Shown: piece after piece, positions 919-61,421 of the stretch
How the letters are laid out: each line of letters opens with the position of its first letter
How positions within the stretch are numbered: the first letter of the stretch is position 1
DNA from: Microcaldota archaeon
GTDB lineage: Archaea > Micrarchaeota > Micrarchaeia > Anstonellales > Anstonellaceae
Assembly (NCBI GenBank): GCA_026413765.1
Contig: JAOAKI010000001.1
Location: 70,325 to 134,324 of the forward strand
Direction: 5' to 3'
DNA length: 64,000 bases
Program-made: the position numbers and the translations under genes
The notes under the pieces: generated by a model
Told to the model about the DNA's origin: nothing
What the model saw: the letters and a program-made list of their open reading frames with translations, nothing else
The model's database searches: none

Positions 919-936
919 AAGATTCGGCTGAGGATT

Positions 937-2859: not shown

Positions 2860-2885
2860 TGTTTTACAATATTGTGAGGTAGTGC

Positions 2886-3806: not shown

Positions 3807-3809
3807 TCT

Positions 3810-4877
3810 ATGTCCAGCATGCTTTACGAGATGATAGGAAGAATCTTTTCGAGGGCGCAGATGAAAAGATTAGGCGCGCTACTTGAATCAGCAGGCTTAA
3901 ACTTTATTCCTGAAGCCTTTGCAGGCTTTCTTGTGGTCCTTTCATTCATCCTTTCTTTGCTAAGCTACATCTTGCTCATCTCATTTCCCCCAACAAAAGG
4001 CTTCCTTTTCAAATTGTCGTTCTTTATCTCTTATGACCTTGCAGTGCAGTCGCAATTGTTCGTCAACATTGTGTCAGCGATTTTCTCAACCACTCTCTCA
4101 GTTGGTCTTTTGCTTTTGTTTGTCTATGTTTTTCTCTTGTTGCGCGCAGAAAAAAGGAAGAGGGAAGTGGAAAGCGTGTTGCCAGAGTTTCTTTCACTTG
4201 CCGCTTCTAACGTTCGTGCTGGGATGACAGTTGATCAAGCCCTATGGTATGCGGCAAAGCCAGAGTTCGGAATCCTCTCGCAGGAAGTTTCAATCCTTGC
4301 CAAAAAAACATTTGGCGGGATGCCATTCAACCAGTCGATTGACTATCTTTCGGAAAGGTTCAATTCAAAATCGATAAGGCGCGTTGTAGCTCTGATCAAG
4401 CAAGGCATAGCATCTGGCGGCCAGATGGCAGAGATTCTGGAAAGAACCGCGGAAGATTCCAGGCAAATGCAAGTCATTCAAAAAGAGATTGCCGCTTCAT
4501 TGCTCATGTACACTATTTTCATACTTTTTGCCGGTGCGCTGGGTGCCCCATTTCTTTTTGCGGTGGCAGGAAAGCTGATAGGCATCTTGGAAGGGGTGTT
4601 TGCTGTCTTGCCTTCTTCCTCTTCAGTTACCAATCTGGTGCGCACTCCATTCTTTGTCGTTTCGCCCTCATCAATCTCTTCCTCTGACTTTTTTGTTTTT
4701 GCTATTCTTTCCTGCGCAATAACTTCGGTTTTTTCCTCACTTATAATTGGCGTAATCTCCAAAGGAAGCAAGAAGGAGGGAATCTCATATATTCCATTTA
4801 TATTGTTTGTCTCGCTAACAGTCTTTTATATAGTCAGCGGGGCGCTTGATAGCGTCCTTTCAAACTTGTATCTATGA
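3810..4877 (+). CDS. Second T2SSF/TadC-like integral membrane protein
   Basis: LPEFLSLAASNVRAGMTVDQALWYAAKPEFGILSQEV...RRVVALIKQGIASGGQMAEILERTAED plus TM segments. Confidence 0.85.
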   Translation: MSSMLYEMIGRIFSRAQMKRLGALLESAGLNFIPEAFAGFLVVLSFILSLLSYILLISFPPTKGFLFKLSFFISYDLAVQSQLFVNIVSAIFSTTLSVGLLLLFVYVFLLLRAEKRKREVESVLPEFLSLAASNVRAGMTVDQALWYAAKPEFGILSQEVSILAKKTFGGMPFNQSIDYLSERFNSKSIRRVVALIKQGIASGGQMAEILERTAEDSRQMQVIQKEIAASLLMYTIFILFAGALGAPFLFAVAGKLIGILEGVFAVLPSSSSVTNLVRTPFFVVSPSSISSSDFFVFAILSCAITSVFSSLIIGVISKGSKKEGISYIPFILFVSLTVFYIVSGALDSVLSNLYL

Positions 4878-43581: not shown

Positions 43582-45285
43582 TTATTCGAATATATGCTCT
43601 ATGATTGCTCCGTATGCTGGCCTTGATATGAACAGGCCAAGCAGCGGGCCAAGCACAGTCGCAGTAGCAAAGCCGATTATCTCAACCAACCCCGAAAACA
43701 GCAACAGAGGCAGCATCGCAACCACTGCAACAAGAACCGAAGTGCTGATAATTCCAAATGCTTTTTCAAGCTTCTTCCTTGCAATTTCTTCCTTTTTGAG
43801 CAACTCGTCAGTGACGATAATCTGCGCATCAACCGACACCCCTATTGCCGCAAGCATGCCTGCCATTGTCGATAGGTCTATGGTAAATGAACCCAATATT
43901 GCCATCATGATGATTATCTCTGCGCAGCTGATTGTTATCATTGGCGCTATGATTCTCAAATGGCGATATCTGAATGCGACCATCAAGGACACAACAAATA
44001 GGGCAACAACAACTCCAATTAAGCTCAGCCTCAGGAATTCCTCTCCGAGTGCAGCAGGAACCACTGTTTTGCTCCCCAGAGTTATTTGGACTGGCAACGC
44101 GCCACCTTTTAAGAGAGACTCCAGCTCCTTTTCCTTTTTGAGAGCGTCTTGCGCTCTTTCTTGCGGGCTATTTCCCTCCGCAAATCCTGTGATGCTGTAG
44201 GCAAAACTTGGTATGCCCTCAGTGACTCCCGGAACCAGCCTTGGCGCAGAAATAAGCCCTACCGCTTTCCAGCTGACCACCGCATCCGAGACAGAGCTTT
44301 CAGCTCCATAAGAAAATTGTGGCGTCATTTCCTCTCTTGTCTTTTGCAACAAAATAAAGCCGCTCTCCCTGAGTCTGTTTTCCAGTGCGCTTCCATTCTC
44401 GATTATTATTTTTGTTATGTTGTGCTTTGCCAGGATGCTCAGATTGCCTTCCACTTCGCTTTCAAGGTATAGCGGAATATCCTGACCTTCAAGTTTCAAG
44501 GCGTTTCTTGCAATCTGTAGTGCTCTCTCTTTTTTAAGCGGGAACTGCTTTCCTGTCGCTTCAAGAAGCCTGCTGTCATTGATTATTACTATCACGTCGC
44601 TTGGCCTGTCCAAAAACATGTAAAGGGGGTAGTTTGCCTTCCCTTTTGCTGCAGCCGCAAACCTCTGGGCGCCGCTTTGCGTAACGGTGAAACTTATCCC
44701 CCAATCTGCATTATGCAAATAAGCAGGCGGAATCCGGACAATATTGTCTGTATAAATGTCATCTCCGCTTATGGCAAGCTTTCCATCCACGATTCCCTGA
44801 TATACTCCTTGCTGCGAAAGCAGATTTTCTATCTGGCTCACCAATTGCGGGCTGCTTTGCGGCACTTCAACATAAATTTCAGAGTCGCCAATTGGCCTTA
44901 CTCTCACTTCAGTAAGCCCAAACGCCGCAGACCTCTTCTTTATCGTGGTTACCATCTCGTCCATTGTTGCGCTGTCCACCGCTTTTTCAAGAAGTATTGG
45001 GATGCGCACGCCCCCAGAAAAGTCGATTCCAAATTTTATGCCATTGAATGCGATCGAGCATATCGACAGGATTACGATTGCAAAAAGGCCTGCCACCCTC
45101 ACATTGTCTTTTTTTAGGAAGGTTATGATTGCGCCTATCAGAACAATAGAAAATATGTAGATCGGCACGCCGTGCTGCCTGTCTATCGCTATTCCAATGC
45201 ACGCAAGAATGGCGAACGCTAATACCAGCAGCACTTCCCGTGCTTGCGCACCTTTTACTATCTGCTCTCTTGAAATCATACTCAT
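43582..45285 (-). CDS. secD: Protein-export membrane protein SecD
   Basis: GIKFGIDFSGGVRIPILLE, AAIGVSVDAQIIVTDELL, TM-rich C-terminus. Confidence 0.93.
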   Translation of the reverse strand: MSMISREQIVKGAQAREVLLVLAFAILACIGIAIDRQHGVPIYIFSIVLIGAIITFLKKDNVRVAGLFAIVILSICSIAFNGIKFGIDFSGGVRIPILLEKAVDSATMDEMVTTIKKRSAAFGLTEVRVRPIGDSEIYVEVPQSSPQLVSQIENLLSQQGVYQGIVDGKLAISGDDIYTDNIVRIPPAYLHNADWGISFTVTQSGAQRFAAAAKGKANYPLYMFLDRPSDVIVIINDSRLLEATGKQFPLKKERALQIARNALKLEGQDIPLYLESEVEGNLSILAKHNITKIIIENGSALENRLRESGFILLQKTREEMTPQFSYGAESSVSDAVVSWKAVGLISAPRLVPGVTEGIPSFAYSITGFAEGNSPQERAQDALKKEKELESLLKGGALPVQITLGSKTVVPAALGEEFLRLSLIGVVVALFVVSLMVAFRYRHLRIIAPMITISCAEIIIMMAILGSFTIDLSTMAGMLAAIGVSVDAQIIVTDELLKKEEIARKKLEKAFGIISTSVLVAVVAMLPLLLFSGLVEIIGFATATVLGPLLGLFISRPAYGAIIEHIFE

Positions 45286-46436
45286 CCCTGGTCCGAAAAC
45301 AAAAGCGCGCTTAAAGGCTTCTTTTCTTCTCCTCTGCTTCCTCCGCCTTCCAAATAGGCTATCACAATCACCGCATTGAGCATCCAGGTGGCTATCAAAT
45401 CCCCAACCAAGCCTGCAAGCGCGACAGCAGAAATCTCAAAATAAGTGTTGATATGTGTGATTGATGCAAGAGCAAAAAGGCAAAGGAACGAAAGCATCAA
45501 AGCAGCACTCATGGTCGTGCCTGTTTTCATCGCCTCATATGCCCTCTCTCTTGGTGTGCCTTCGTGCCTCTTGATGACACGCATTGTCAGCAAAACGTCG
45601 GTGTCCAATGAGAAGCCAATCAGCATCAAAAGTGCGGCAAATGAAGCAAGAGTAAGCGGTATGCCGAAAAAGCCCATTGCGCCCATCGCAATAAGCACGT
45701 CGCACAATGCTCCGATCAACACAGCTGCCGACGGAATGGCAGTCCTAAAGATGAGGAAGACCACAATGCTTACAAAAATTGTAGAGTAAATCACTACATT
45801 TACTGCCTTTTCAAGAAATTTTGCAGAAAGCGATGCTGAAACTTCGTTAAATTGTGCGCTTTCGTATGCCACTAACTGCGACAGCGTTGCCGCCAATTTA
45901 CTGGAATAGCTGTCTAAAATCATCCTGTACGCCGCACTAACAGCTTTCTTCAATTCGTTTGCATTCGCATAGCCAGAGGCATTTTTCTCCAGCCCCGCTA
46001 TCTCAAAAAGCGCATCTGCTTTCTTGTCCAACTCTTTCCTTTCTTGCATGTATTTTTCCAACGCTTCTGCGCTTTGGTTGGTTATGCCAACATCTGCTTC
46101 AAGCTGCGCCACCCTTTCAATTTTTTCAAAAAAAGCGGATTTCAGCTCTTCTGCTTGAGTCAATTTTTCGTCCCTTTCAACTTCAACTTCGACTTTGTAT
46201 CCAGCCGGATTCTTAAGCGACTTTGCAGAAGAAATGGCATAGCCTTTCTGCTCCAGTGCCTCTTTGAGTTTTTCAATATCGACTCCTTCTTTTGTTTGCA
46301 TCGTCACCAATGTTCCGCCTTTGAAATCGACTCCCTTTTTTATTTGCGGGATATAAAAAAGCGAAATCAGAACCAGCACTATCGGCACTAGCGCAAGCAG
46401 CTTGTAATTCCCCCTGTAAATGTTTGGCAATTGCAT
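45282..46436 (-). CDS. secF: Protein-export membrane protein SecF
   Basis: KKGVDFKGGTLVTMQTKEGVD, MLIGFSLDTDVLLTMRVIKRHEG; overlaps secD start. Confidence 0.93.
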   Translation of the reverse strand: MQLPNIYRGNYKLLALVPIVLVLISLFYIPQIKKGVDFKGGTLVTMQTKEGVDIEKLKEALEQKGYAISSAKSLKNPAGYKVEVEVERDEKLTQAEELKSAFFEKIERVAQLEADVGITNQSAEALEKYMQERKELDKKADALFEIAGLEKNASGYANANELKKAVSAAYRMILDSYSSKLAATLSQLVAYESAQFNEVSASLSAKFLEKAVNVVIYSTIFVSIVVFLIFRTAIPSAAVLIGALCDVLIAMGAMGFFGIPLTLASFAALLMLIGFSLDTDVLLTMRVIKRHEGTPRERAYEAMKTGTTMSAALMLSFLCLFALASITHINTYFEISAVALAGLVGDLIATWMLNAVIVIAYLEGGGSRGEEKKPLSALLFSDQG

Positions 46437-46491: not shown

Positions 46492-47523
46492 TTAAATTAT
46501 CTTAATCAACCCTCTGCCTATCTCTGCCAAATCTGCGCCAAGCAGAGAGCTTGTCTGCCTTATGAATGTGAAAGTGATTATAAGAGACACAAGCGGGTAA
46601 AACATTGCCTGAAGAAATATTATCCCCACCGAGGCAATAATATAGTCGATCTGATCCGAAATCCACGTCACCAACCCTGCGCCTTCTGCGCTGCTTTGTG
46701 TGGCTTTGCTGTTCAATTTATAGTATATCTCAAATTGATTGCCAGCATCGGTAAAGCAGGGCTCCTCTGAGCTTAGTTGCTGGATTGTCTGGGATGCTTG
46801 TATGTTCTCAATCTCTCTGCACATGTCAGATGAGGAAGGCATTATTGAGATTATCATCACATAGCTTAGCGGAAAGACAAACGCAAATCCAAGCGCAAAA
46901 GCCGTTACGAATCCCCCAATTCCGCGTGTAAGTGGGAAAGAGCGAAGTACCAATCCGATTGGCAAGAATGGGTAAAGCATGGTGTAGTGGGCAAAATGCA
47001 AAAGGTAATATTGGATATAGTGAAATAAGATCAAATATATCATGTTATTTGCAATATAGTGAAATACTGCGACATATCCTGTCAGTGCGAATCCTCCTGA
47101 TATTGGCTCGAGCCCACGGATATCATAAGTAAGAGTGCTCCACGGTTCAACCCACGCATTTAGTGTGTATGCAAGAGTATACACATTGATTTGGCATCTA
47201 ATGACCACAAGAATATATGCTTTTCCTATCTCGCTTGGCGGAAGAAGCGTGTTTGGCGGGACAGTTGAAGCCAGATGAAGGTTCCCTGAAGCTGCCGCAA
47301 TACTTGTTGCAAGAGGCGCAAAAAGGTTAGTGTTCAGTAGCTGAATCGTGGCTGCAACCATGATTATAAGGAAAGTAACAAACACTTGGACATACTCTCC
47401 TTTAACCCACATTCTCAGGTTCTGCAGATTAAAGGCGTTCGCAACCATGTGCAAAATAATTGCTATGAAAAGGGAAATGAACCCAACAATCAAAGAAATT
47501 TCCACCCACATGTCCATCTTCAA
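46492..47523 (-). CDS. Polytopic membrane protein, paralog 6 of six-gene array
   Basis: Multiple TM segments; GLVLRSFPLTRGIGGFVTAFALGFAFVFPLSYV; C-terminal FIRQTSSLLGADLAEIGRGLIKII. Confidence 0.85.
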   Translation of the reverse strand: MKMDMWVEISLIVGFISLFIAIILHMVANAFNLQNLRMWVKGEYVQVFVTFLIIMVAATIQLLNTNLFAPLATSIAAASGNLHLASTVPPNTLLPPSEIGKAYILVVIRCQINVYTLAYTLNAWVEPWSTLTYDIRGLEPISGGFALTGYVAVFHYIANNMIYLILFHYIQYYLLHFAHYTMLYPFLPIGLVLRSFPLTRGIGGFVTAFALGFAFVFPLSYVMIISIMPSSSDMCREIENIQASQTIQQLSSEEPCFTDAGNQFEIYYKLNSKATQSSAEGAGLVTWISDQIDYIIASVGIIFLQAMFYPLVSLIITFTFIRQTSSLLGADLAEIGRGLIKII

Positions 47524-48593
47524 ATCAGCCTCGTAAGGTTTGTCACATCTATTTCTTCTCCTAAGAAATGCGTAATGCCTCTTGTCAATTCTACCAACAC
47601 TATGAAATTAATCACAGGCAGAGCCACTGCTGCAATCATATACACCAAAACTGGCTGCAGTAAAATAAATACCCCGCTGGTTGCATTCTCCACAAGTTTA
47701 TTGCGAGTCTGTAAAGTTGCCGGATCTGAAGGGTCCAGCTCCTTTATATTCCGCTGAAAATCGTTTGGAGTCGGAAGCTGGTAGTTGTTCGGATCGGCTT
47801 TGCTGTTCGCAGCGCCAACTTGCTGCGTTATTTCTTGCTCAGCTGCCTCAACTCTGTGCCATACTATATAGTCATTAAATACTATCATTAACGGATAAAA
47901 GAAAAACAAAGCAATAGTAAGTCCGATCAATGTTCCGCCAAGCGGCCTTGTCGGCTCAAATGCCCTAAGAAATATTCCGAAAGGATAAAGGAAAAACAGC
48001 CCAGCAATCGCCATGTATTCCACTATCCTCATTTGCAGCTGCAGCATAAGAAATGAGGTGACATAGCCGCCAAGCATCAAAAACATCAAACCTGTTATTT
48101 GGCTAAATGTCTGCAATGGAGTGCTAGTTGAGCCAACCGCAAGTGGATTGGATGCCCAAGTGGAATTTGCTATTAAATTGACGATTTTTACCACAAAATT
48201 CATATAATAGAATATCAAATAACCCAACTCCTCAATCTGCTTGAAATACCTGTCAACTATGGCCTCCATTTTCATTCCCTGCGGATATCTTGCAGAGTCA
48301 AGAAAACTCATGTCGAAATTGCAAAAGCCATAAATCCAGATTATGCTGAAGCCAATAATTATCGTCGTTCCAAAAATCTGAAAAAGTTCGAATTTTGTCC
48401 ATGCTTCAAGCATCTGGTTGCGCAACGCTTGGGAAACCATATACAAAAACACAAGAATAAACAAAGATGCAAACAATGCTGCGAAAGTAAGCTCTAGCCA
48501 TCCACTCCCAAGAATCCCAAACGAGACTGGTACAACGGGTGCGCTTCCACCCATGCCTAGTGCATTGCACACAGCTTCTCCAAATGTCATCAA
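47520..48593 (-). CDS. Polytopic membrane protein, paralog 5 of array
   Basis: FLRAFEPTRPLGGTLIGLTIALFFFYPLMIV; C-terminal LTRGITHFLGEEIDVTNLTRLI; 4-nt overlap with both neighbours. Confidence 0.85.
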   Translation of the reverse strand: MMTFGEAVCNALGMGGSAPVVPVSFGILGSGWLELTFAALFASLFILVFLYMVSQALRNQMLEAWTKFELFQIFGTTIIIGFSIIWIYGFCNFDMSFLDSARYPQGMKMEAIVDRYFKQIEELGYLIFYYMNFVVKIVNLIANSTWASNPLAVGSTSTPLQTFSQITGLMFLMLGGYVTSFLMLQLQMRIVEYMAIAGLFFLYPFGIFLRAFEPTRPLGGTLIGLTIALFFFYPLMIVFNDYIVWHRVEAAEQEITQQVGAANSKADPNNYQLPTPNDFQRNIKELDPSDPATLQTRNKLVENATSGVFILLQPVLVYMIAAVALPVINFIVLVELTRGITHFLGEEIDVTNLTRLI

Positions 48594-49930
48594 ATCAACT
48601 TCTCAAGCGAGCTTAAGTCTATTTCTGTTCCAAGCACTTTGGCAATCTCTTTCGCAAAAGTGATCGTTATGAAGACATTGAATATCGGAAGCAGAATGCT
48701 TACTATAAATACAAAATATATCGTCTGATATAAAGCGTGCATTGCAAACGAAGTGGCAGGGATTATGAATACGACTGCCAACAGGTTGAGGTTGAGGAAC
48801 TTGAGGATAAAGTATGTTGCAACAGTTATCCCGATTGTTTTTGCAACCGACCAAAACTCCCCAGTCGCAGGCCCTGTCAATGCATTGACAAATTGGGCAT
48901 ATACTTTTCCTAGCACAGTGTTGAATATGCAGCTTGCGCCAGTACTTATAGTGGGGTTTGAAAATATCCTGACAACCAGTGGCCCCTTGTTTATTTCCTC
49001 AACCAAAAGCCTCCCTTCTATTGTCGATGTATCGCCATTTGGAATGTATGGCCGAGGATCATCCAAACTTGCAGGGTATGCGTTTCCAAGGCAGCAAATC
49101 GGCCGGTCTAAGCAGTTGATCCAAAGCCCGGAAGAGCTTGTTCCGCTGACAGTCTTGATTTCTCCCTCTATATAGCGGGAAATGATTTCACCACCTTGCA
49201 CGATCAAAAACGGGTAGACAAAATAAAGAGAAAGCGAAACGCCTATCAGGGCGTTGCCTCCACCTTTTATCCCTAGCGCTCTAAGAAAGAGGCCAGCGTT
49301 GAGCAATATCGGCAAAGCACTATCTGCAATAAAGCAAAGCATATACTCATGGGCAAACCAGCTTATTATCGCAGTCGTAATCAATTGCATCAAGAGCCCC
49401 AAAGTGTCATATATCGGCTTGAATGCTGGCGCAACTTGGAAAGTGACATAGATTCCCAGTTGTTTTCCAAATAGCCTTGCATAGGGGGTTACGCTTGTGT
49501 GCAGAGAAAGCAAAGTTGTTGCCCCAAGCATCATTCCAAAATCAGCAATCATTGTGTTCCTGATTATCACCGCATATGCTCTTGCGGTTTCCAAGTTCGT
49601 CTGAGCAAATGGCTGGAAAATGGCAACAATTAAAACAAAGATCCCAACAAGAAGCGCGTTTTCGGCAAGCTCCCAAACTCCTGCCTTTGCAAAATCGCGT
49701 ACTTTCTGCCCTAAAAGGCCACCCAAAATATGCGTCAAGCTATTTATTGACACGCCAAGCGCGATTGCTGCAACCGAAAGCGCCGCCCATCCAAGGTCTT
49801 GCGCTGGACGTCTATTGCACATTACTACTTTCAGGTCAGAATCTACAAACAGTGGATTTTGCCATATCCAGGCAAATCCTTTTTCCATCAAAAACAACAA
49901 TATTAACGCAGCGATTATTTTTTTCATCAT
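48590..49930 (-). CDS. Polytopic membrane protein, paralog 4 of array, with signal-peptide-like N-terminus
   Basis: LFLRALGIKGGGNALIGVSLSLYFVYPFLIV; C-terminal FAKEIAKVLGTEIDLSSLEKLI; 4-nt overlaps. Confidence 0.85.
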   Translation of the reverse strand: MMKKIIAALILLFLMEKGFAWIWQNPLFVDSDLKVVMCNRRPAQDLGWAALSVAAIALGVSINSLTHILGGLLGQKVRDFAKAGVWELAENALLVGIFVLIVAIFQPFAQTNLETARAYAVIIRNTMIADFGMMLGATTLLSLHTSVTPYARLFGKQLGIYVTFQVAPAFKPIYDTLGLLMQLITTAIISWFAHEYMLCFIADSALPILLNAGLFLRALGIKGGGNALIGVSLSLYFVYPFLIVQGGEIISRYIEGEIKTVSGTSSSGLWINCLDRPICCLGNAYPASLDDPRPYIPNGDTSTIEGRLLVEEINKGPLVVRIFSNPTISTGASCIFNTVLGKVYAQFVNALTGPATGEFWSVAKTIGITVATYFILKFLNLNLLAVVFIIPATSFAMHALYQTIYFVFIVSILLPIFNVFITITFAKEIAKVLGTEIDLSSLEKLI

Positions 49931-51219
49931 ATCAACCTTGACAGAACAGAAATTTCAACATCTCCTCCTATTAGCGGAGAAAAATACTTCACACTTGCAA
50001 GCATCGTCATAAGACCCAAAAACGGAACCACAAGAGAAAATATTAGCAACGAAGCAAGCATACCTATTGGCCCTTTTGGTCCAAATCCGCTTGATGGTGC
50101 CCCACTGCTAATATAGCCCAAAAAGTCTTTGTACCATGAAGTCCCTTCATACTTTTTCCATATCGCAATGAATGCGCTTCCTAAATTCTCCATCTCATTA
50201 ATCTGGCTTTGAGAGCGCGTATCATTGCACACATCTATCTGAAGCTTTTTTGCAGGATTAAACACCTCTTTTGCATCGCTTGATGAGCCGTAGTCCACGC
50301 TTCCGCCGCTGAAAGGCAAGGTCGCACCCTTGCTTTCGTCATATTTGAACCCAAAGACTCTTCCTCCGGTGTTCCAATTTGCGCCATCCATAAACCCAAA
50401 AAGTATTGCATTGGCAGCGACATAAAACATTGGCATTACTATATAAGCCGAAAGCGCAAGGGCAATAAGCAGGCCGCCAAGTTTTCTCGTGAAATACAAT
50501 ATCCTTAATATCAATCCCATCGAAATCATAACCGGAAATAGCGCGTACCATAAGTAATCCAAAAATATTTGCTGAGCCCTCGCCAACATCATCAATTTCA
50601 CCGAAAGCTCAAAGACAATCGAGAAGAAATCAGCAGCCAGCGCCAAGAAGGCAAAAGGCGACAAATTCAGGTTCCCTTGCCTTTCATCAAACAGTGATGT
50701 CCCGCTAAAAGAAAGATTTGACAAAAATCCATAAAGCCAATAATGCTTCAGGGCAGTTATTGCATTCATTCTTGCTGTCTCGTATAAAGTTTGGAGATAG
50801 TCGGTTGCAAGCTCGATATGGCATGCTCTTCTTTTTGCAAACGGGCAGTTGGCGCCAGTGCAGCAAACAGTGTTTACATAAGTGTTCCACTGACCCGTCC
50901 TGTCATCGCTTAAGTAACTGAGGCTCATAAGCCAAGAGTCTAAAACCTCCACAAGCGCGACAGCAAAGATAAGTATCAGCACAGAAAGGAAAGCCTGCCC
51001 CACTTCCTTCTTTGTCCAGGCTTTCAGCTTCTCGTCGTTTGTCAGAGTAGCCACCATATAAGATATCGACAGCAGAAACACAACTGCCAAAAGCGCCACT
51101 CCAGCAAGCATTTCCCAACCCCATACCCACACGCTTCTTGAGGACGAGGTGCTAGTTGCTCCGCTGCAGCCAAATGCAAGAAAAAGCACGGTTAACAAAA
51201 TCGCACTAGCCGTTTTCAT
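49927..51219 (-). CDS. Polytopic membrane protein, paralog 3 of array, with lipobox-like signal
   Basis: LILRILYFTRKLGGLLIALALSAYIVMPMFYV; C-terminal VKYFSPLIGGDVEISVLSRLI; N-terminal LFLAFGCSGATS. Confidence 0.85.
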   Translation of the reverse strand: MKTASAILLTVLFLAFGCSGATSTSSSRSVWVWGWEMLAGVALLAVVFLLSISYMVATLTNDEKLKAWTKKEVGQAFLSVLILIFAVALVEVLDSWLMSLSYLSDDRTGQWNTYVNTVCCTGANCPFAKRRACHIELATDYLQTLYETARMNAITALKHYWLYGFLSNLSFSGTSLFDERQGNLNLSPFAFLALAADFFSIVFELSVKLMMLARAQQIFLDYLWYALFPVMISMGLILRILYFTRKLGGLLIALALSAYIVMPMFYVAANAILFGFMDGANWNTGGRVFGFKYDESKGATLPFSGGSVDYGSSSDAKEVFNPAKKLQIDVCNDTRSQSQINEMENLGSAFIAIWKKYEGTSWYKDFLGYISSGAPSSGFGPKGPIGMLASLLIFSLVVPFLGLMTMLASVKYFSPLIGGDVEISVLSRLI

Positions 51220-51221
51220 AC

Positions 51222-52139
51222 TTACCCCAGCTTTTGTCCAATGAACTTTGTAAAGCTTCTAATGAATGCTATTGTGAGTGTCATTGATAGCGCAGGCAAA
51301 AACAGAGCCTGCAATAGAAGGTAAGATAAAGTAAGCAGCGGGTCAAACAGGATGCTTTCTAGGCTGAAAAATTTCGAGTAGCTAACTTCTGCCATAAAGT
51401 TCGGATATTGTTGTGCGAGTCTTTCTTCGAACTGTTGACTGCTGGCTTGCTTGAATGTTTTTTCCATCATTTTTGGCACGATATAAGCATGCATTGCATA
51501 ACTGTACGGAAAAAGTATTCCAAATCCAATAGCAACTGATATCAGAAATGCGCTTGCATCTCGCAATGGCGGGAATATCCTTGTCAATACCGCAGCAGGC
51601 AGCAGAAACGGAATCAATACTGCCTGAATCGCCTCCAAAATTAGCTGCTGAACCATCAAGCTTGCAGTAAACGGGACAATTATTATCGATAAAAAGTCAA
51701 ATATTCTCTCAAACAATACAGCAGAAGGGAATGTTAGATTTATTGTCCCCCACGCTGCTGGCCCCCATCTCATTGACCAAGCCGCATGGTACTGAAAACG
51801 CAATACTGCTGCTTTCATCGATGCAGCAGTTATCAACATTTTCTGGTTGATAAATGTCAGGTACTCTTTGCCTATTTCGTATGGATCTCTTCCGGTCAAT
51901 AATTCGGTCATTTCAGCTGCAAAACACGTTGCGCCAAATATGCTGATAAACAGGAAAGCAGAAACCGCAAGCTGATAAAGTTCAATCGAGCTGAATGCCT
52001 CATACTCAGGTCTTCTAAAAAAGTTTGCAGCCATGTAAGATATTATCACTACACTTATCATTGTAGCAAGCGCCATGCCCGCGGTAGAATAAATCACATT
52101 GTATAAAAACGCATCATTTGCGCATAATGCCATCTTCAC
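51222..52139 (-). CDS. Polytopic membrane protein, paralog 2 of array
   Basis: VLTRIFPPLRDASAFLISVAIGFGILFPYSYAM; C-terminal FIRSFTKFIGQKLG. Confidence 0.82.
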   Translation of the reverse strand: MKMALCANDAFLYNVIYSTAGMALATMISVVIISYMAANFFRRPEYEAFSSIELYQLAVSAFLFISIFGATCFAAEMTELLTGRDPYEIGKEYLTFINQKMLITAASMKAAVLRFQYHAAWSMRWGPAAWGTINLTFPSAVLFERIFDFLSIIIVPFTASLMVQQLILEAIQAVLIPFLLPAAVLTRIFPPLRDASAFLISVAIGFGILFPYSYAMHAYIVPKMMEKTFKQASSQQFEERLAQQYPNFMAEVSYSKFFSLESILFDPLLTLSYLLLQALFLPALSMTLTIAFIRSFTKFIGQKLG

Positions 52140-53533
52140 ACCAGCTTGCTTATTCCAAATACCCTTGGTTCGCCTCCTATCAAAATCGCAAAATCTTTCA
52201 GGAGCGTCATTGTAATGATAATCTCGATTACTAAAAACAACATCGACATAATTGTAAATTGCATTGCATCCATAATTAATATCTCTATCTCCTTGAACAT
52301 TGCCACAGATGCTGCAGGTGGCAGCGGAAATGCAAAAAGCAAGATATTCCTTCCTATACTCTGCATCCTCCTTGCAAGCTCATTTTTTGCATCTTCCATC
52401 ATTTTCTCGGTTTTTGTCCATTTCTCATTGCTGGCGCTTCCACCGCCATAGACCTCCAAGAATACTCTATCATGGGTTTGGGCAGCCTGTTTTAGCGCTT
52501 CGTTGATTTCATCAGCACTCTTTCCATAGCACAAAGAGAAAATAGAAGAGTATTCTCTAAAGTCAGTCAGTGGCGTAGTGCAAACTTTGCTGCCTCCTTG
52601 CTCATACCTGCAATTTCTTGAACAGCACTCATCATCACTTGTGCAAGGCTGGCCATTTGTAAGACAGGCTGGGCCCCCAGGCTGCGGCATCGGATTAGCA
52701 ATCATTTCCCATATTTGTTGATTTATGAGTATGCTGATCGGGTAAATGAAATATCCTGCAAACGCCACCGCAAGTATTGTAGAGCCTGTTTTTCTTGTAA
52801 ATGGGAATGCTCGCAAAATAAGCCCGATCGGCATAAACACAGTAAGAGCGTTCTCCTCAATAAAGGTAAGCAATATTTTTTGTGCCATTATGCTGCCTAG
52901 TGCTGCGCCAACAACATCAACAAGCAGGGTGTGAATGTCGGATATTGGCACCATCGCAATCCAAGGGGCAATACCAAAAGACACATCAATAAAGGGATAA
53001 ATGATAGGCATTCTCAATCCGGTAGAAAGGCCAGAAAGAAGACCAATTACAACCTCAGTCATCATTAGTGACATATAGCCAAATGTCAATTTTCGCATTA
53101 TGACGCCATCAGCCCCAATAATCATGAATGGAGGGGTAGAGGAGGTTATGATGCCTGGTCTGCAGCCAAGAAAATAATCAGCATGGCCATATGCGATGTT
53201 TCCGTTTCTCCATCTTCCATTCTCAAATGGCCCATGCTTTATCTTCCACTCTTCGCAAACTTGAGTTGGCGGAACTCCGCTTAGCATGAAGCCTTCGGCA
53301 ACCTTGTCAAATACGCTTCCAGGAGTGGCCAAGACATAAACTATCAGCAATATGATTGCGCTTACAGCAAGCTCGCCAGTCTCTGCTTTTGCGAACGCCT
53401 TTATTGATGAATTAGACAATGCCTCCCCAACAATAAAAGATAAAGACACAATTGCCACGCCAATAGCAAACGCAATCCCTATCATCTGCCAAGGCCAGCC
53501 AGCAACTACTACTTGAAGCAAATATTCTATCAT
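52136..53533 (-). CDS. Polytopic membrane protein, paralog 1 of array, with cystine-knot-like insertion
   Basis: LILRAFPFTRKTGSTILAVAFAGYFIYPISIL; C-terminal LLKDFAILIGGEPRVFGISKLV; insertion CLTNGQPCTSDDECCSRNCRYEQGGSKVC. Confidence 0.85.
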   Translation of the reverse strand: MIEYLLQVVVAGWPWQMIGIAFAIGVAIVSLSFIVGEALSNSSIKAFAKAETGELAVSAIILLIVYVLATPGSVFDKVAEGFMLSGVPPTQVCEEWKIKHGPFENGRWRNGNIAYGHADYFLGCRPGIITSSTPPFMIIGADGVIMRKLTFGYMSLMMTEVVIGLLSGLSTGLRMPIIYPFIDVSFGIAPWIAMVPISDIHTLLVDVVGAALGSIMAQKILLTFIEENALTVFMPIGLILRAFPFTRKTGSTILAVAFAGYFIYPISILINQQIWEMIANPMPQPGGPACLTNGQPCTSDDECCSRNCRYEQGGSKVCTTPLTDFREYSSIFSLCYGKSADEINEALKQAAQTHDRVFLEVYGGGSASNEKWTKTEKMMEDAKNELARRMQSIGRNILLFAFPLPPAASVAMFKEIEILIMDAMQFTIMSMLFLVIEIIITMTLLKDFAILIGGEPRVFGISKLV

Positions 53534-53613: not shown

Positions 53614-56600
53614 ATGGCGACAAAGAGCACTCATGCATTTCTAATTATAATTTTTATATTGTCTGCCTTTGTTCAATGCTCTTTTTCGTTCGAAGTCGTC
53701 AGCGAAGGCAAAGACAAGACTTTCATTGAGCTTTCAGTTGAAAATAAAACAGTCATCGCAAAGATTTCTTACTACAATCTCAGCTATTACAGCAAGCAAA
53801 TGCCGCAAAACTACCCGAATATAGACCAACGACTTGGGACACTGCCACCCGAATTCTTCCAGCCCCCCTCTCGCCCTTATTCAGAAGAGTTTTTCAGGGT
53901 CAAGAGGGAAAACCTTTCTAATGCTTCCATTTATTTTGTTGTGCTCTACAATGGTCAGCAACTGAATATAACAGACGAAAATGGCAACGAAAAATGCTCC
54001 CCTGCTCCAAAAACAGACGAAGCAGGGAAGACAAACTGCACTGTCACTCACTTCCTTTTTGGTGGTCAGGTTAAGGAGGTTGATTCTGAAAAAAGCTGCA
54101 TACTAGTAAAAGCGTCATTCCTTGGCGAGCAGATAGACAAGAAAACCTATAAGCCAAGCTCTCAGACAGTAATTCTCTGCCCAAAGCCATCTGCCTCTGC
54201 TCTTTCACGATTTGGCAGCAGCTTGGCTCTAATACTTTCATCAAACAATCTCTTCATCAACAGCTTATGCTTCCCATTAGCCTTGCTTTTATCTTTACTG
54301 ATTGCTGCAATGTATTATGCTGGAAGAAACCCGCTTTCTCTTTTCGACTTGACTACTCCAAAACTCCCGCACTTGCGCTCATTCAAGATGAAGTCAAAGG
54401 CTTCTCCTCAGATGATGAGGTCAGTAGCAAGAAAATATGCCCAACTACAAGTGAGGGCAGCAAAAAGCGCATCTAAAGCCTTAGCCGAAGTCATAAGAGT
54501 GAGAGGAAAATATGAAGGCAAAAGAAAAGAAGAGATACTGCTTGAAGTCTTAAAAGCAAAAGCCAAAGTTCACCACCTCTTTCATGACTTGAAGCATTCA
54601 ATAGAGGCTTCAAAGGGCAAAGGCCTTACGGATGCCCAAATTCGCAACTTTGAGAGGCGACTTGCCGCTCTTTTTGGCACAGCTCCAGAAGGAAGAAGGG
54701 CATTCAAAATCTGGAAAAAAAATGTGGAGATGACACTGCCATTCATCCAGCTTTACAACGCTGCATACCAGACCTATTCGATGACTGCAAGCGGTCGTGG
54801 GCTTTCAAATTCACTGGTATCAAGGGCAATTGTTACACCACTTTTCAATAAGTTGACAAAGGTCAGCGTTTACTTGGAGGAATTGAAAGGAATAAGGGCA
54901 ATAGGTAAAATCCCAATAGTCAAGAACGTAATCAACACGCCAACGCGTATATTTGATGCAATTGCCCAGCACCGCTCCTCTCGTTTGGGCGCGCTTAATT
55001 TGAGGAGGGAATTAATAGGTGGCGCGGTTTACACCATCCTCAATAGGCTCAACATGGTGGACAAAGCAAAAAACTTCATGCAAAAGTCAGGAATAGAAGC
55101 GTTCTTCAAATGGACACATAAGTGGAGTTTTGACAGCTTTGTTGCCAAGCACGATTTGTATAACCGAAAATTCAGGGAACTTTACGACCCTGTGGAAAAT
55201 GTCCGAAAGCTCTCAATTGACGCATACAATATTGCATACCACGACCTTCTAAGAAAGCTCACCTTTTCGCTTCCGACTAAAATGACGATGGGCGAGATTC
55301 TTGTTTCCATGCAAAATTCTATAAAAGACAAAAAAAGAAACGATCAACTCAAAGATGATTTTAGAAAATTGATCGATGCTTTGGAGAACAATCGGAATAT
55401 CAACCTTGATACTGTTTTGAAGATCGCGCGTGAGCTTAAACTTTCAGAAAAAGACGTCTCTTTTATAAGGAGAGTAGTTGAGCTGCAAGATCAGTGGGGC
55501 AAGATCCAGCAGGCGCTTGAGGCGATAATGAATAAGCCATACGAAAGCCACTATTACAGATTGAAAGCACTCTATGATTTAGCAGTCAAGTACGGTATTG
55601 ATTTAAAATTGGGTGAGGATCTCAATAAATGGAAGGACTACGAGGAAAATGTGATTAGGAAAATAATGCTTGCCCGGATGGAAAACGGCACCTATAAGCC
55701 AATCACATGGGCTGATGTCCGAAATGAGTTTAGAAGTGGCGCATCGACTCGTGACATTCAAACCAAATTCGGTGGTATTGTCTCAAAAGCAGAATACGAA
55801 AGGAGGATGCTTGAGCTGCGCAACAGGGTTCTCTCCTCCACAGATGCAAAAACCTTAAAGGACAATACAATCGGCACAATCCTCACTATCAGAGACAGCA
55901 TCAATGCCAAAATAAATTCCACAGGTCCAACCACCCTTTTTTCCCATATCTATGCAGATGCGCTAGGCTCAAATCCCACGGCATTCTACTTGAACAGGCG
56001 CCTTGCTGAGTTAGGGCTTGGTGACATCAAAGTCAAGAACTTGGACGAATTTGAGATCTTTTTCTTCCGAGGGACGATGTCAGAGTCATTGCGCAGGCGC
56101 CTTGAGAGGATCGCTGCGGATAATAAGCGAACGGTGGATGACCTGCTTAAGGATATCATGGTTGAGGCCTTAAGGTTCCAAGTCTCTGCAAATATTGCAA
56201 ATATCAGGATTGCTGAGCTGATTTTTGGAGACACAGCTTCCCGCAAGAGCGTCTTTTCGGACATCTTCGGTAGCCGAGCAGAGAAACAGATGAAAGGGAT
56301 GATTAAACTTCACGAGCAACTCGAATATTCATTTCAGAGGATATCGTTCAATTATTCACCTTATGATTTGCAGAAAGAGGCACTGTTCAACCAATTGAGG
56401 GTTTCTGAGCGGTCGGCAGGTTTCTTCATCTGGGGCACCAAACGCGGCGGCAGCAATGCAGACAGCGTGATGTGGCTTTTGGATTCGACCTTCAAGCACA
56501 ATGCTGATGCAGTCGGCATGTTGAGAGCCTTCTACAACAATCTCATCAACCGCGAAAGCAGATTCTATGACGAAAAATTTGCGCAAAAGATAAAAGAAGG

Positions 56601-59217
56601 CGATTTTGTTTCAAACTATGATGCACTTCGCGCAAGGGGATATAACTTTTTGGATGTCCGGAACGGCCTTGGCATCCTGCTGAGAGGCGACAAGAAAGGT
56701 AATCTGCCTTTGTTGGAATATGACCCGACCATACTTTCTCAATATCGTTACAATTCCGAAATCGTAAAGAAAGGCGAAGTGCGAGACCTTGGGGCACTGT
56801 TTGCAAGGATAGCAGACTCTCCTTACGTTTATTTGCCTTCAGGTGTGGTGGTGCTTTCAAAATTCACAGATTCATCTGGCAGGATCAGCTGGTTATACGG
56901 TGCGCCTCTGAAATCCAAAGAAGTGGAAAGAGTGTACAGAGAGGCGCTGCAAGACCCCACTTTCAGCCGAACTTCTGAACTATCCAACAAGCTTGTAGGT
57001 TTTGATAAAGACGGCAACTACCGTCCGTCTACCCAACTTATCAAAGTGATCTACGCAAAAGACTTGCAGGAGATCAAAAACAATCCAGACAATTTCTTTG
57101 GATATGTTTCACCCTTTGAAAAATTCAGGAGCAGGATACGTACTGGGCTTCACAAACTTGGGGAGCTGTTTGGCGAGATGTATTATTCTGCGACCGACTA
57201 CCGTGCATCACAGCTTGAAAAATGGTATGCTGCCCAATATCAGATGCGCATGATTCTTGATTCTTATGAGCGCTCTTTTGCCCGTTACATGACGCCTGGC
57301 ACCAAAAGATATGATCCGTCATCTTATATTGAGGATTTGAAATCAGAGGGCCTCAAAACAAATGACCAGCTGCGCATTCGCGTAGCAAACACAATGGAGA
57401 AATTGAAAAGAGGGGAAGGGGGCTGGCTTGACACATTGCGCGCCACTTTTGATGGCTTTAGAAGAAATCTTGCTGCCAAAATAGTCAACGAAGTTGCCGA
57501 GGCGGAATCTGCCTGGTATGCCGCAAAGCTTGAGCTGAGGGCAATCGAGAAGCTGAAAAATGAAGGGGCAATTACAAAAGATGAATATAAGACTCTAAGA
57601 GAAGAAGCACTCTCTAAGATCAGCGGCCTTAAAGAGTCGTACAAAGAGCTAAAAGAAGAGTACAAGCAATACAACGAACTGGCGCGCTATTGGGCAAGCA
57701 GCCACGACAACACTTACGGAACCGCAAGAAACATTTTCAAGGTTCTGCCCGTCTTTACCTCAATTTTTGACAGCAAATTTGTTCAAGGTGCAAAAATAGA
57801 TTATTATTTCATTACCGAATCAAGCGCAATGAGGGATCCGCGCACAGCGACAGGCGCAGGCGTTGGACTTGACTATTCGTTTTATGTCGGTTACCAAACC
57901 GGTCAGACGGTCTATGAAAGGCCAAGATTCTGGACGACAAACGCATTGTGGGAAGAGCAGCTTCGCCTTCCACTTATGTTGTCTTATGCTGTCCACAAAT
58001 GGTTCTATCCTGCAGTAAGCCAGGCGACACGCGACAGAAGCCACTATCCTTCCTATCTTGAGATGGATGCTTTGTATCCAGGCAGGCCGCATAATGAAAG
58101 CCGACTCGGAAAGCATGATCTGTTCATGCCGATGGTCTTGGCTCCTCTAAGAAGGCATTACAGCTCAGATTATTGGAGAACGCGCTTCCAAGCTCTGCTT
58201 GATTTTTCAGGCGCATCCTCACTAATAGGGGCGTATTTTTCAACCTCTCCTTCTCAGACCGAGGCTTCTTTCTTTAGAAGAACAATGGAAAAAATGTTCT
58301 TGCCAAGTCCGCACTATTCAACTGAAGCGCGATTCTTGCTTTCTCAGAGGACATTAGACCAGTTCAAGATGCTTGATGAAGCAAGAGAAAAATATTCAGA
58401 AGTAAAAGAGGCAATCGATACATACATCAACTCAATTGATGGCTCTGAAGCACAAAGGAAAGCTTTAGAAACCATATCTAAATATGTAGAGATTTCGGAC
58501 CGAAGGCCAATTGGCGTCCAGCGTGGAGTTTCAGGTTCGGATATGGAGGAAGATGGCTCGCGGAATCGTTTCATGAACCTTTATGTTGGCTTCCACCAAA
58601 ACATCTGGAAGCCAACCGTTCCAGGGTTGATGGATACTGATCCGATCAGCGGCAAATGGAGGGCATTCCCGCAGACCGCTATGGAAGTCTACCGGGCTCC
58701 AGAAGAAAGCAAGCTTGACAATCTAAGGCAATTCAACCTGCCAACTTATGATGAAAAGACTGGCCGGTTTGTCTTGACTGAGCAGCTTCACAATTATGAT
58801 GACGCAATGCGGGAGGTATACAAGCGCGAAAGTACTCTTTTGATTCATTTGCTGAAGTACCAGCACGAGCTGCAAAGCTATACAATCCTCAACAGCCCAG
58901 CTGTTCTTGTCGCATCGCCTGGCATTGGTTCAGCTCTTGCATTCAACATTAGCAGATTTTTCCTAAGCAAGACTCGGCTCGGCTCTTCGATTACTGAAGA
59001 GGAAGCTTCATTCTCCGAGCGATTTTTCACCCAGAGTTGGTACAGTTCTATTGCAAAAAGATGGGCATTAGCTAAAAACTCTTGGAATGAATTATTAGAA
59101 AGCACGTTAATCTCTCGTTTATCTGGCGCTTCAAGGAAAAGCAGGCTAGAGGAAGATGCCTTAAAACTTGCTATTTACAGCTATAGCAATCTGTCTTCGA
59201 GAGGGTATCTATTATGA
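53614..59217 (+). CDS. Giant (1867 aa) membrane-anchored protein
   Basis: Signal peptide, about 190-aa Cys-containing extracytoplasmic region, TM LCFPLALLLSLLIAAMYYAG, then about 1600 aa of mostly helical, charged sequence. Confidence 0.88.
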   Translation: MATKSTHAFLIIIFILSAFVQCSFSFEVVSEGKDKTFIELSVENKTVIAKISYYNLSYYSKQMPQNYPNIDQRLGTLPPEFFQPPSRPYSEEFFRVKRENLSNASIYFVVLYNGQQLNITDENGNEKCSPAPKTDEAGKTNCTVTHFLFGGQVKEVDSEKSCILVKASFLGEQIDKKTYKPSSQTVILCPKPSASALSRFGSSLALILSSNNLFINSLCFPLALLLSLLIAAMYYAGRNPLSLFDLTTPKLPHLRSFKMKSKASPQMMRSVARKYAQLQVRAAKSASKALAEVIRVRGKYEGKRKEEILLEVLKAKAKVHHLFHDLKHSIEASKGKGLTDAQIRNFERRLAALFGTAPEGRRAFKIWKKNVEMTLPFIQLYNAAYQTYSMTASGRGLSNSLVSRAIVTPLFNKLTKVSVYLEELKGIRAIGKIPIVKNVINTPTRIFDAIAQHRSSRLGALNLRRELIGGAVYTILNRLNMVDKAKNFMQKSGIEAFFKWTHKWSFDSFVAKHDLYNRKFRELYDPVENVRKLSIDAYNIAYHDLLRKLTFSLPTKMTMGEILVSMQNSIKDKKRNDQLKDDFRKLIDALENNRNINLDTVLKIARELKLSEKDVSFIRRVVELQDQWGKIQQALEAIMNKPYESHYYRLKALYDLAVKYGIDLKLGEDLNKWKDYEENVIRKIMLARMENGTYKPITWADVRNEFRSGASTRDIQTKFGGIVSKAEYERRMLELRNRVLSSTDAKTLKDNTIGTILTIRDSINAKINSTGPTTLFSHIYADALGSNPTAFYLNRRLAELGLGDIKVKNLDEFEIFFFRGTMSESLRRRLERIAADNKRTVDDLLKDIMVEALRFQVSANIANIRIAELIFGDTASRKSVFSDIFGSRAEKQMKGMIKLHEQLEYSFQRISFNYSPYDLQKEALFNQLRVSERSAGFFIWGTKRGGSNADSVMWLLDSTFKHNADAVGMLRAFYNNLINRESRFYDEKFAQKIKEGDFVSNYDALRARGYNFLDVRNGLGILLRGDKKGNLPLLEYDPTILSQYRYNSEIVKKGEVRDLGALFARIADSPYVYLPSGVVVLSKFTDSSGRISWLYGAPLKSKEVERVYREALQDPTFSRTSELSNKLVGFDKDGNYRPSTQLIKVIYAKDLQEIKNNPDNFFGYVSPFEKFRSRIRTGLHKLGELFGEMYYSATDYRASQLEKWYAAQYQMRMILDSYERSFARYMTPGTKRYDPSSYIEDLKSEGLKTNDQLRIRVANTMEKLKRGEGGWLDTLRATFDGFRRNLAAKIVNEVAEAESAWYAAKLELRAIEKLKNEGAITKDEYKTLREEALSKISGLKESYKELKEEYKQYNELARYWASSHDNTYGTARNIFKVLPVFTSIFDSKFVQGAKIDYYFITESSAMRDPRTATGAGVGLDYSFYVGYQTGQTVYERPRFWTTNALWEEQLRLPLMLSYAVHKWFYPAVSQATRDRSHYPSYLEMDALYPGRPHNESRLGKHDLFMPMVLAPLRRHYSSDYWRTRFQALLDFSGASSLIGAYFSTSPSQTEASFFRRTMEKMFLPSPHYSTEARFLLSQRTLDQFKMLDEAREKYSEVKEAIDTYINSIDGSEAQRKALETISKYVEISDRRPIGVQRGVSGSDMEEDGSRNRFMNLYVGFHQNIWKPTVPGLMDTDPISGKWRAFPQTAMEVYRAPEESKLDNLRQFNLPTYDEKTGRFVLTEQLHNYDDAMREVYKRESTLLIHLLKYQHELQSYTILNSPAVLVASPGIGSALAFNISRFFLSKTRLGSSITEEEASFSERFFTQSWYSSIAKRWALAKNSWNELLESTLISRLSGASRKSRLEEDALKLAIYSYSNLSSRGYLL

Positions 59218-61421
59218 GGCTACTGCTTGCGATTGCTGTGCTTTTTTTCTTTTTTGGCTGCACTCTCAACGTTCCTGCTTCCGAAAAATTTGCAGCCTCC
59301 ACTCTTGCAGTCGGCAGGTTTTCGCCTGCAGATGAGATGGTCTGTCAGCCACTCAATGACTCAAGGCCTTGCTACTGCATGGTCTGCGAAAACAAGACAA
59401 CTTGGTCATCCATCTTCCCTGAAAAGATGCGCAAGCTTATGGCTTTTTTCGATTCGACTTTGCACAAGGGTAATTGCACCTTTATGCACTGCAATATGAC
59501 TGATTTTGTCAACATCATAAGCGAAAAAGAGCGCTATCAGATGCGCTCATTCATGCTCGGAATCGGTCCCTCCGCAAGCGCGGTTGATAACGCAAATCTT
59601 TTCTGCAATTATTCTCTCCAGCTTTCTTTCAAATGGCTGAAAGGCTCTGTGTTTAATAGCCCAGAGATCCCAAGCCCGCGATCAGCAAAATGCTGGCTCG
59701 AGCGAAATATCCTCCCAGTCTACCTATATTACACCGAAGGCAAAAACATCGACGTATGGAGGACTGCCCAGATTGCGCAAGCATTCAATGATGTTGGGCC
59801 GGTGCTTCTTTCCACCGAAGTCTGGTTCGATCCAAATGATCCTCAAGCAATCGAAGGCATCAAAGGACAAATTGACGCAATAAAAGCAAATTGCAACAGC
59901 TGTCTCGTCGTTCTCATGCTGAACGGATCAATCCAAGATCGAAAGCTTGTCTTAGAGAAAATATTCGGTAGAGGGGACATAAAGACTGGAGCAGGATTCA
60001 GCCCATATTACCAGAAAGTAGATGTTGTCGGATTTGGTTTTCTTGCAAACGATTATCCAACCTGCAATCCAGTTGACGTCATTGGGGAGAACTTTCTTTT
60101 TTCAAGATTTGTTTTGAAAAAATACTCGAAGCCGACTCTTTGGGCGTATGTAGGAGTAAGTAAAGGAAATAATAGTTTTGGCACATGCAGCTGGGATGAA
60201 GAGGCAGTGCATAACTTTTATCAGCAGCTTTTTGCAAGCATCCAAGCAATGTCAAGCTCAGGGATTATTGGCGTCGGCTTCTATGAGTTTTCAGACTATG
60301 CAGGCCCACTTCCTTGCGACAACAAAATTCAGGGATGCGAGTTTGGCCTTTTGGATTCTTTTGGAAACCAAAAGCACCCAGCAATCAACACATGGTCTTC
60401 CCTTTGCCAGTATTTTGGCACTGTGCAGTTCAGAAGCCCGCTTATCTTTTCAAGAAATGGCTACGGCTCGGTTTGCGACCCTATGCAACTGCAGAATAAC
60501 AAGATGTTTACAGCGATTTCTTTTGAACTAAATAGCGGAAAGCCTCTGCCAAATTCTATTGTTCCTACAGCCCCAAAAGAAAAATATCTTCGCTGTAGCG
60601 ACATTTGTGTTTCCGACGTGCCGCTGAATGATTGGCAGATTTTCGACAACACTGGAGACACATTCGATTCTGCCCATTGCGATCTCTACCCATTCATAGA
60701 GGAATTAGCAGAAGAAAAAGAAATCAGCGCCTTGTTTTTCAGAGCAATAGTTGAGCAGGAAAGCAACTTCAACCCATACGCAGTTTCTTGCATAGACCAA
60801 AATTCGCCAAATTGCAATCCTGCAAACCTTTCTATTGCAGAGATTTGCCGGCTGGCAAACCTTTCTGATGACTGCGGCCAAGTGGTAGGCGGAGGCAGCT
60901 CCTGTCCGGCAGGCATGAAGCCGTGTGCATTTGGCATTGCGCAATGCATTGCTTACCCCGGCAAATATTATGTCCAGCGCGGGATTGACCTTCCGCTTGA
61001 AATCCGAAATTGCGGAAAAAGCAAGAAAGGCATAGATTACAATCCATTTGATCCGCAGGATAGTGTTTGCTGCGGAACTTCTGTTTTGAAATATTATCTG
61101 GACATTTCACCATCAGCAGGCAGAAACTTTGTCCAAAACAACTGGAACACGCTTACTTCCTGCCCGCAAGGCATCAAAGATGACAAGGAGTGGGTAGCTT
61201 ATTTCTTGGCTGCTAACACCTATTATGGCTATCCTAATGATTTTTCAGGCTTCCTATCTCAGCTTAACAATTGTCAAGGCCAACAAAATTACATTTCCTA
61301 TCTGAGAAGCAAGGGATACTCCTATGCAGCACGTGTACTTTCCCGCTACCTTGACGCTATAGACAAGTGCGGCTCGGATTGCCCTGGAAAAGCCGTACAG
61401 ATAGCCTCCAATCCTCCTTAA
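59214..61421 (+). CDS. Lipoprotein with glycosidase-like central region and C-terminal SLT/lysozyme-like domain
   Basis: Lipobox FFFFGCTLN; GVGFYEFSDYAGPL...FGLLDSFGNQKHPAINTW; FFRAIVEQESNFNPYAVSC...CAFGIAQ...WVAYFLAANTYYGYP. Confidence 0.8.
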   Translation: MRLLLAIAVLFFFFGCTLNVPASEKFAASTLAVGRFSPADEMVCQPLNDSRPCYCMVCENKTTWSSIFPEKMRKLMAFFDSTLHKGNCTFMHCNMTDFVNIISEKERYQMRSFMLGIGPSASAVDNANLFCNYSLQLSFKWLKGSVFNSPEIPSPRSAKCWLERNILPVYLYYTEGKNIDVWRTAQIAQAFNDVGPVLLSTEVWFDPNDPQAIEGIKGQIDAIKANCNSCLVVLMLNGSIQDRKLVLEKIFGRGDIKTGAGFSPYYQKVDVVGFGFLANDYPTCNPVDVIGENFLFSRFVLKKYSKPTLWAYVGVSKGNNSFGTCSWDEEAVHNFYQQLFASIQAMSSSGIIGVGFYEFSDYAGPLPCDNKIQGCEFGLLDSFGNQKHPAINTWSSLCQYFGTVQFRSPLIFSRNGYGSVCDPMQLQNNKMFTAISFELNSGKPLPNSIVPTAPKEKYLRCSDICVSDVPLNDWQIFDNTGDTFDSAHCDLYPFIEELAEEKEISALFFRAIVEQESNFNPYAVSCIDQNSPNCNPANLSIAEICRLANLSDDCGQVVGGGSSCPAGMKPCAFGIAQCIAYPGKYYVQRGIDLPLEIRNCGKSKKGIDYNPFDPQDSVCCGTSVLKYYLDISPSAGRNFVQNNWNTLTSCPQGIKDDKEWVAYFLAANTYYGYPNDFSGFLSQLNNCQGQQNYISYLRSKGYSYAARVLSRYLDAIDKCGSDCPGKAVQIASNPP

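Follow-up and report, generated by a model that had tools for sequence, protein, structure and literature searches.

The window analysed here is a stretch of 64,000 nucleotides from the genome of a Microcaldota archaeon of the order Anstonellales (assembly GCA_026413765.1, contig JAOAKI010000001.1, positions 70,325 to 134,324). Its archaeal genes, such as those of eL15 and Orc1/Cdc6-like proteins as identified by eye, together with the small genome point to a DPANN archaeon, perhaps of the Micrarchaeota. On its minus strand, at positions 46492-53533, lies a row of six consecutive overlapping open reading frames (ORFs) encoding proteins of 343, 357, 446, 430, 305 and 465 amino acids (aa), which are the subject of this work. 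Since neighbouring ORFs overlap by 4 bases at four of the five junctions and are 2 bases apart at the fifth, the six look like one operon. Numbered in the order of transcription, position 1 (52136..53533, 465 aa) comes first and is a polytopic membrane protein, VirB6/CedA-like as judged by its context; it is followed by position 2 (51222..52139, 305 aa), position 3 (49927..51219, 430 aa), position 4 (48590..49930, 446 aa), position 5 (47520..48593, 357 aa) and the last gene of the row, position 6 (46492..47523, 343 aa). Profile scans matched none of the six proteins to a Pfam or NCBIfam family. Omega-toxin-like Pfam matches in position 1 were rejected as a composition artefact, being under the cutoff and located on a Cys-rich extracellular loop.

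The initial annotation had read these genes as six highly diverged paralogs with a common three-part architecture. In MAFFT alignments their identity to the first sequence was about 19-24%, with hardly more than one R, one P, one I and one G column invariant. A pairwise identity of only about 20% speaks for recent or chance repeats, that is, for ordinary hydrophobic proteins aligned by composition. This was examined by the profile-profile comparison that the initial annotation had named as able to refute the paralogy, using for each position an hhalign profile built from 21 ortholog sequences. All 15 pairs of the window's row gave probabilities of 99.7-100% (E 4e-25 to 3e-40), whereas control profiles of the membrane proteins SecD and SecF stayed at or below 0.6% against these six and 1.1% against a second row described below. 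Since every pair scored so far above the controls, it is certain from the sequences that the six proteins are paralogs. The N-terminal strings cited for the architecture are found in the row proteins. The central motif is present with its full TRxxGG in positions 3, 5 and 6, in its canonical form in position 5 (LRAFEPTRPLGG), and is degenerate in positions 4 (LRALGIKGGGNA), 2 (TRIFPPLRDASA) and 1 (LRAFPFTRKTGS). The C-terminal tails that had been cited were likewise found, among them that of position 5 (LGEEIDVTNLTRLI), and position 2 lacks the tail, ending in IGQKLG.

The same genome, which comprises 840 kb in 17 contigs with an estimated completeness of 100%, contains a second entire six-gene row (contig C14, 14504-24749; L009/L010), in which positions 3 and 4 carry very large Cys-rich inserts (proteins of 1143 and 733 aa). 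In hhalign comparisons the best second-row partner of every first-row position was the same position. Matches to the family were present in 58 of 59 relatives from the same order or closer, and the identical six-member order was seen at 39 loci (21 first-row and 18 second-row, the window's genome counted). The six-gene row also recurs in further families of the class, and in a sample of the phylum the family was present in 134 of 146 genomes. No relatives of the row were found in IMG/VR viral contigs or in plasmid sequences, and neither single sequences nor profiles of the row proteins matched the PDB.

A 102-row tree, made by a quick method with SH-like approximate likelihood ratio test (SH-aLRT) support and no bootstrap, has long branches, and we make no claim about the branching order among positions. 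Positions 1, 2, 3, 5 and 6 each formed one branch (SH-aLRT 96, 99, 97, 96 and 98, respectively), while position 4 was not recovered as one clade and needs two changes on the tree; no shuffling of the position labels approached the observed grouping. Because five of the positions are well-supported clades, we infer that the divergence of the six predates the separation of the lineages sampled. The original proposal of an ancient tandem duplication whose copies were kept is strongly supported by the same order at 39 loci, the recurrence in other families, the position clades and the second row. The profile probabilities, the ordered conservation and the position clades refute recent or chance repeats, to which we give virtually no credence. 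Six single-copy proteins, described below, clustered together on the tree, nearest to position 5 (a weak support of 85). With these single-copy versions also grouped a lone extra family member of a seventh type in the window's genome (C10:58359-59378; L011:10360-11379), which lies apart from both rows and shows no adjoining VirB4 gene in the fetched stretch.

The operons of related archaea link the row to an ATPase and a pilin. In family f17 (L146, L147, L148, L161, L196) the gene order is pilin, the six, two transmembrane (TM) proteins, VirB4, and proteins of 253 and 861 aa. The two TM proteins are relatives of a 289 aa membrane-anchored protein whose gene, in the window's genome, precedes that of a 533 aa ATPase. 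This ATPase matched AAA_10 (49 bits) and P-loop_TraG (37.6 bits), both over the cutoff, and so belongs to the VirB4-type ATPases of the type IV secretion superfamily; it also matched DUF87/HerA, and its PDB matches were HerA and the VirB4-like ATPase 4ag5. In families f12 and f13 (L153-L155, L158) six polytopic genes, whose assignment to positions is less clear, are followed by two TM proteins and VirB4. The membrane-anchored proteins of about 275 aa always precede VirB4, and no profile match was found between them and VirB3 or VirB4 of plasmid R388. Minimal operons also exist, in which one family member is found with VirB4 (L150, L151, L152, L185, L186). In two such genomes (G116 and G118) the single member adjoins VirB4, with a pilin-like gene alongside in G116, and in two genomes of the window's order (G038 and G058) the single member is followed by a TM partner and then VirB4. 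Overall, linkage of the family to VirB4 and a VirB2-type pilin was found in L146, L147, L148, L161, L185, L196 and others.

The single-copy and six-copy forms therefore fill the same operon slot, which argues that the six may jointly do the job of one protein in the minimal machine. The shared slot is compatible with one mixed complex as well as with six separate homo-oligomers, and is not proof of either. Row and VirB4 also co-occurred across the phylum sample. With VirB4 orthologs defined by E below 1e-100, row and VirB4 were jointly present or jointly absent in 140 of the 146 genomes (129 with both, 11 with neither, five with the row only and one with VirB4 only; Fisher p 5e-12, without correction for the relatedness of the genomes). 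Since the genomes are related and the absences are confined to four families (f16, f18, f20 and f21, the last of which has both states), the association represents a few independent events, not 146. All five row-only genomes are incomplete assemblies (84-89%), in which VirB4 may have fallen into a gap.

Ahead of the row in f17 stand one or two genes for proteins of 104-120 aa that have a signal-type N-terminus and two membrane helices. Their matches to the pilin families T4SS_pilin (PF18895, best 2.8e-5) and TrbC/VirB2 (PF04956, best 5e-5, obtained with the window genome's own copy) were full-length and lay under the curated cutoffs. The window's genome encodes VirB2-like pilins at C13:9697-10708, C10:76368 and C7:61646-62135, with three genes in tandem at the end of C13 and two at the end of C7; the contig breaks at these repeats suggest an array that failed to assemble. 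Moreover, the family's N-terminal hairpin is similar to the pilin. In hhalign comparisons second-row position 3 reached a probability of 93% (E 2.9e-7), position 2 reached 76%, and two further positions 51% and 48%, with 51% (E 1.6e-4) obtained for the N-terminal hairpin of the family of 51222..52139 (the window's position 2). The remaining positions were weak, reversed-pilin controls reached at most 3.2%, and a merged alignment of 12 families gave 10.6%, weaker than single families. A pilin related to the N-terminus of the polytopic protein is a feature in common with the Ced and Ted systems of crenarchaea; for the Ced system, homology between the N-terminus of CedA and the pilin CedA1 has been reported (PMC9905601).

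Topology was assigned with a simple hydropathy heuristic to 189 proteins, with 45 set aside. Segments assigned to the outside were negatively charged and Cys-rich (3.5 Cys per 100 residues in the N-terminal part, 3.6 in the third loop), while those assigned to the inside were neutral to positive and Cys-poor (0.35 in the first loop, 0.08 in the C-terminal tail). This suggests a family topology with the N-terminus out, about five helices and the C-terminus in, which would place the conserved tail in the cytoplasm, in agreement with a docking role. VirB6 has about five membrane helices, a periplasmic N-terminus and a cytoplasmic C-terminus. Models of its topology with five and with four helices are mentioned in work on Rickettsiales (PMC2653234). 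AlphaFold2 models of positions 5 and 2, made from an alignment of the six window paralogs, had confidence scores (pLDDT) of 47.6 and 42.5 and were unusable.

These results lead us to the reading that the six are probably a tandem-expanded set of VirB6/CedA-like channel subunits belonging to a reduced, chromosomal, type IV secretion-like machine. Several results weigh against it. The family profile (PF04610, COG3704) did not place the six in the VirB6/TrbL family, no sequence homology having been detected: a scan of the entire genome with PF04610 (TrbL) gave nothing even at E 10, and hhalign probabilities were at most 3.8% against 10 bacterial VirB6 proteins and below 4% against polytopic proteins of Sulfolobus plasmids, both within the range of the reversed controls. 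The power of this comparison is low, VirB6 itself reaching only 8.8% against the Sulfolobus-plasmid proteins. Within the order to which the window belongs, VirB4 and the pilins are encoded on contigs other than that of the row, and the pilin matches, as stated, fall below the Pfam cutoffs. No relaxase was detected (PF03432 was not found in the genome; other relaxase families were not searched). A VirD4/TrwB-like ATPase is encoded 5 kb before the window (C1:63140-65480; L110:7141-9480; TrwB_AAD_bind 36.9 bits, over the cutoff), and the presence of such a protein in only 27 of the 146 phylum genomes, mostly from the window's order, rules it out as a core part. Since no relaxase was detected and the VirD4-like protein is patchy, these data argue against a classical conjugation set. 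Pfam scans of the operons revealed none of VirB7-VirB10, which were not searched as families. Because homology to VirB6/TrbL was not detectable, our claim is that the six would work like a VirB6/CedA channel, and membership of that family is not claimed.

The lack of a sequence link to VirB6/TrbL, the pilin matches under the cutoff and an ATPase that resembles HerA too would also be accounted for by an unrelated archaeal membrane complex for export, for transport or for assembling the envelope, whose ATPase happens to be of the HerA/VirB4 type. We find this distinctly unlikely, because one and the same operon encodes a VirB4 with a TraG-type domain together with a polytopic and a pilin-like protein, and the family itself has pilin-like N-termini.

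In the proposed channel reading, the core of the machine would comprise a two-helix VirB2-like pilin, VirB6-like subunits (one in the minimal form, six in the common one), the partners of about 275 aa and the VirB4-like ATPase. The six would be specialised descendants of one polytopic membrane protein, occupying the VirB6/CedA position of membrane channel, and would together build a hetero-oligomeric base that forms a pore in the membrane. A hetero-oligomeric channel, which the initial annotation had also put forward, is plausible within the frame of a VirB6-like channel in a VirB4-driven machine. The N-terminus and the Cys-rich loops would face outwards and the R-rich central loop and the C-terminal tail inwards, where the tail could serve as a docking site for the partners or the ATPase. 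The one or two membrane-anchored partners could correspond to VirB3 plus a split-off N-terminal domain of VirB4. The ATPase would power pilin assembly, substrate transfer between the small archaeon and another cell, or both; the substrate might be DNA or protein, and the direction might be either. As a guess, having six distinct subunits could suit an ATPase with six-fold symmetry. A more specific version, which we offer tentatively and rate below the general one, is that of a near-phylum-wide chromosomal machine with a channel built from six different subunits as a fixed hetero-oligomer, expanded by tandem duplication from a one-subunit form that survives, with two channels to one VirB4 in the window's order.

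A close parallel in composition is with the Ced and Ted systems, which consist of CedA/TedA, CedA1/TedC and CedB/TedB, the channel protein having 6-7 helices (PMC9905601). As in these, a reduced chromosomal set combines a two-helix pilin, a polytopic channel protein with a pilin-like N-terminus and a VirB4/HerA-like ATPase (PMC9905601). Unlike them, the row has six specialised channel paralogs in place of one, extra membrane-anchored partners and large Cys-rich extracellular inserts, and it occurs in a different archaeal group; the likeness is one of composition. The machine might resemble Ced in function as well, importing DNA from neighbours for repair or as a source of nucleotides. The minimal operons do have the Ced composition of a pilin, one polytopic protein and a VirB4/HerA-like ATPase (PMC9905601), and neither a PF03432 relaxase nor a general coupling protein was found. 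The described Ced set, however, does not include six subunits, huge extracellular inserts rich in Cys or a neighbouring glycan hydrolase, and we regard DNA import as rather unlikely.

Among bacteria, the Rickettsiales also have several proteins of the VirB6 type that are divergent and carry large flanking regions of variable kind, namely five RvhB6 in Rickettsia and several paralogs in Anaplasma and Ehrlichia (PMC2653234). Those are recognisable VirB6/TrbL proteins of a bacterial system with VirB8-VirB10, whereas the row has six positions, no TrbL signal and no recognised VirB7-10 (not systematically searched). In plasmid R388 a VirB6 pentamer was proposed as the base of the pilus on which VirB2 is assembled, powered by VirB4, with six copies of VirB3 alongside the central VirB4 (PMC9259494). 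R388 has one VirB6 gene and a homopentamer, unlike the row, and its VirB6 has no profile similarity to the six. The Patescibacteria (candidate phyla radiation, CPR) resemble the present case in that their cells, which are ultrasmall and probably symbiotic, have a near-ubiquitous chromosomal VirB4-based system with genes of the VirB2 and VirB6 types close to virB4 (PMC12102498). Their system is bacterial, of a monoderm conjugation lineage, with VirB8-like parts and a coupling protein, and a six-copy VirB6 row does not appear in the text of that paper (PMC12102498).

The genes adjoining the rows bear on a further alternative. Divergent from the window's row is the gene of an 1867 aa accessory protein (53614..59217, plus strand), in which no Pfam family reached the cutoff; we read its layout from the sequence as a hydrophobic segment at the N-terminus, then about 190 aa, a single membrane helix and a long charged part predicted to be helical. 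Homologs adjoin 10 first-row and nine second-row loci, among them a 1612 aa protein encoded after the second row on C14. In the window the gene of the 1867 aa protein is followed by a VirB1-like accessory gene (59214..61421, plus strand) encoding a secreted 735 aa protein with a lipobox-like signal and an SLT domain (PF01464, 24.5 bits against a cutoff of 21.3), a lytic transglycosylase domain with the catalytic-type motif ESNFNP. Close relatives alone have a full homolog in this place (L077). To our knowledge archaea lack peptidoglycan, and the enzyme could act on the wall of a bacterial partner. Also encoded after the second row is a 1366 aa secreted-type, lipoprotein-like protein, present beside 16 of the 18 second-row loci.

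Specifically, the machine might deliver proteins or serve as a host-contact organelle of an epibiont, in a role comparable to that of the Patescibacteria type IV secretion system. The large Cys-rich extracellular inserts of the second row, the secreted protein beside it and the SLT domain in the window fit such a role, and in Patescibacteria a virB6 gene was found to be essential for epibiotic growth (PMC12102498). No effector was identified, however, and the SLT protein is limited to close relatives; we consider this role possible, if doubtful, and somewhat better placed than DNA import.

No description of the six-gene system was found in the open-access literature. The archaeal section of a 2025 review of type IV secretion covers Sulfolobus and Thermococcus plasmids (PMC12857230), and the word "secretion" is absent from the main text of a 2025 study of Micrarchaeota (PMC12892359). 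If the channel reading is right, most of an archaeal phylum would have a dedicated machine for cell-to-cell transfer or contact that is absent from the open-access literature searched, and that would parallel the type IV secretion system required by ultrasmall epibiotic bacteria. It would also provide a naturally occurring series of machines, from one channel subunit up to six, which bears on how a five-fold channel or pilus base, as in R388, is matched with a six-fold ATPase ring. The gene set makes hypotheses of host interaction in small-genome archaea directly testable.

Finally, two other gene sets lie in the window. SecD and SecF are encoded directly downstream of the row (43582-46436); they adjoin first rows only, and only in close relatives, and we rejected them as part of the system. 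At 25-4877 there is a type IV pilus/type II secretion-like set, a machine separate from that of the six-gene row, with part of a T2SSE ATPase (PF00437, 4.8e-38), two membrane proteins of the T2SSF family and an unassigned protein of 640 aa.

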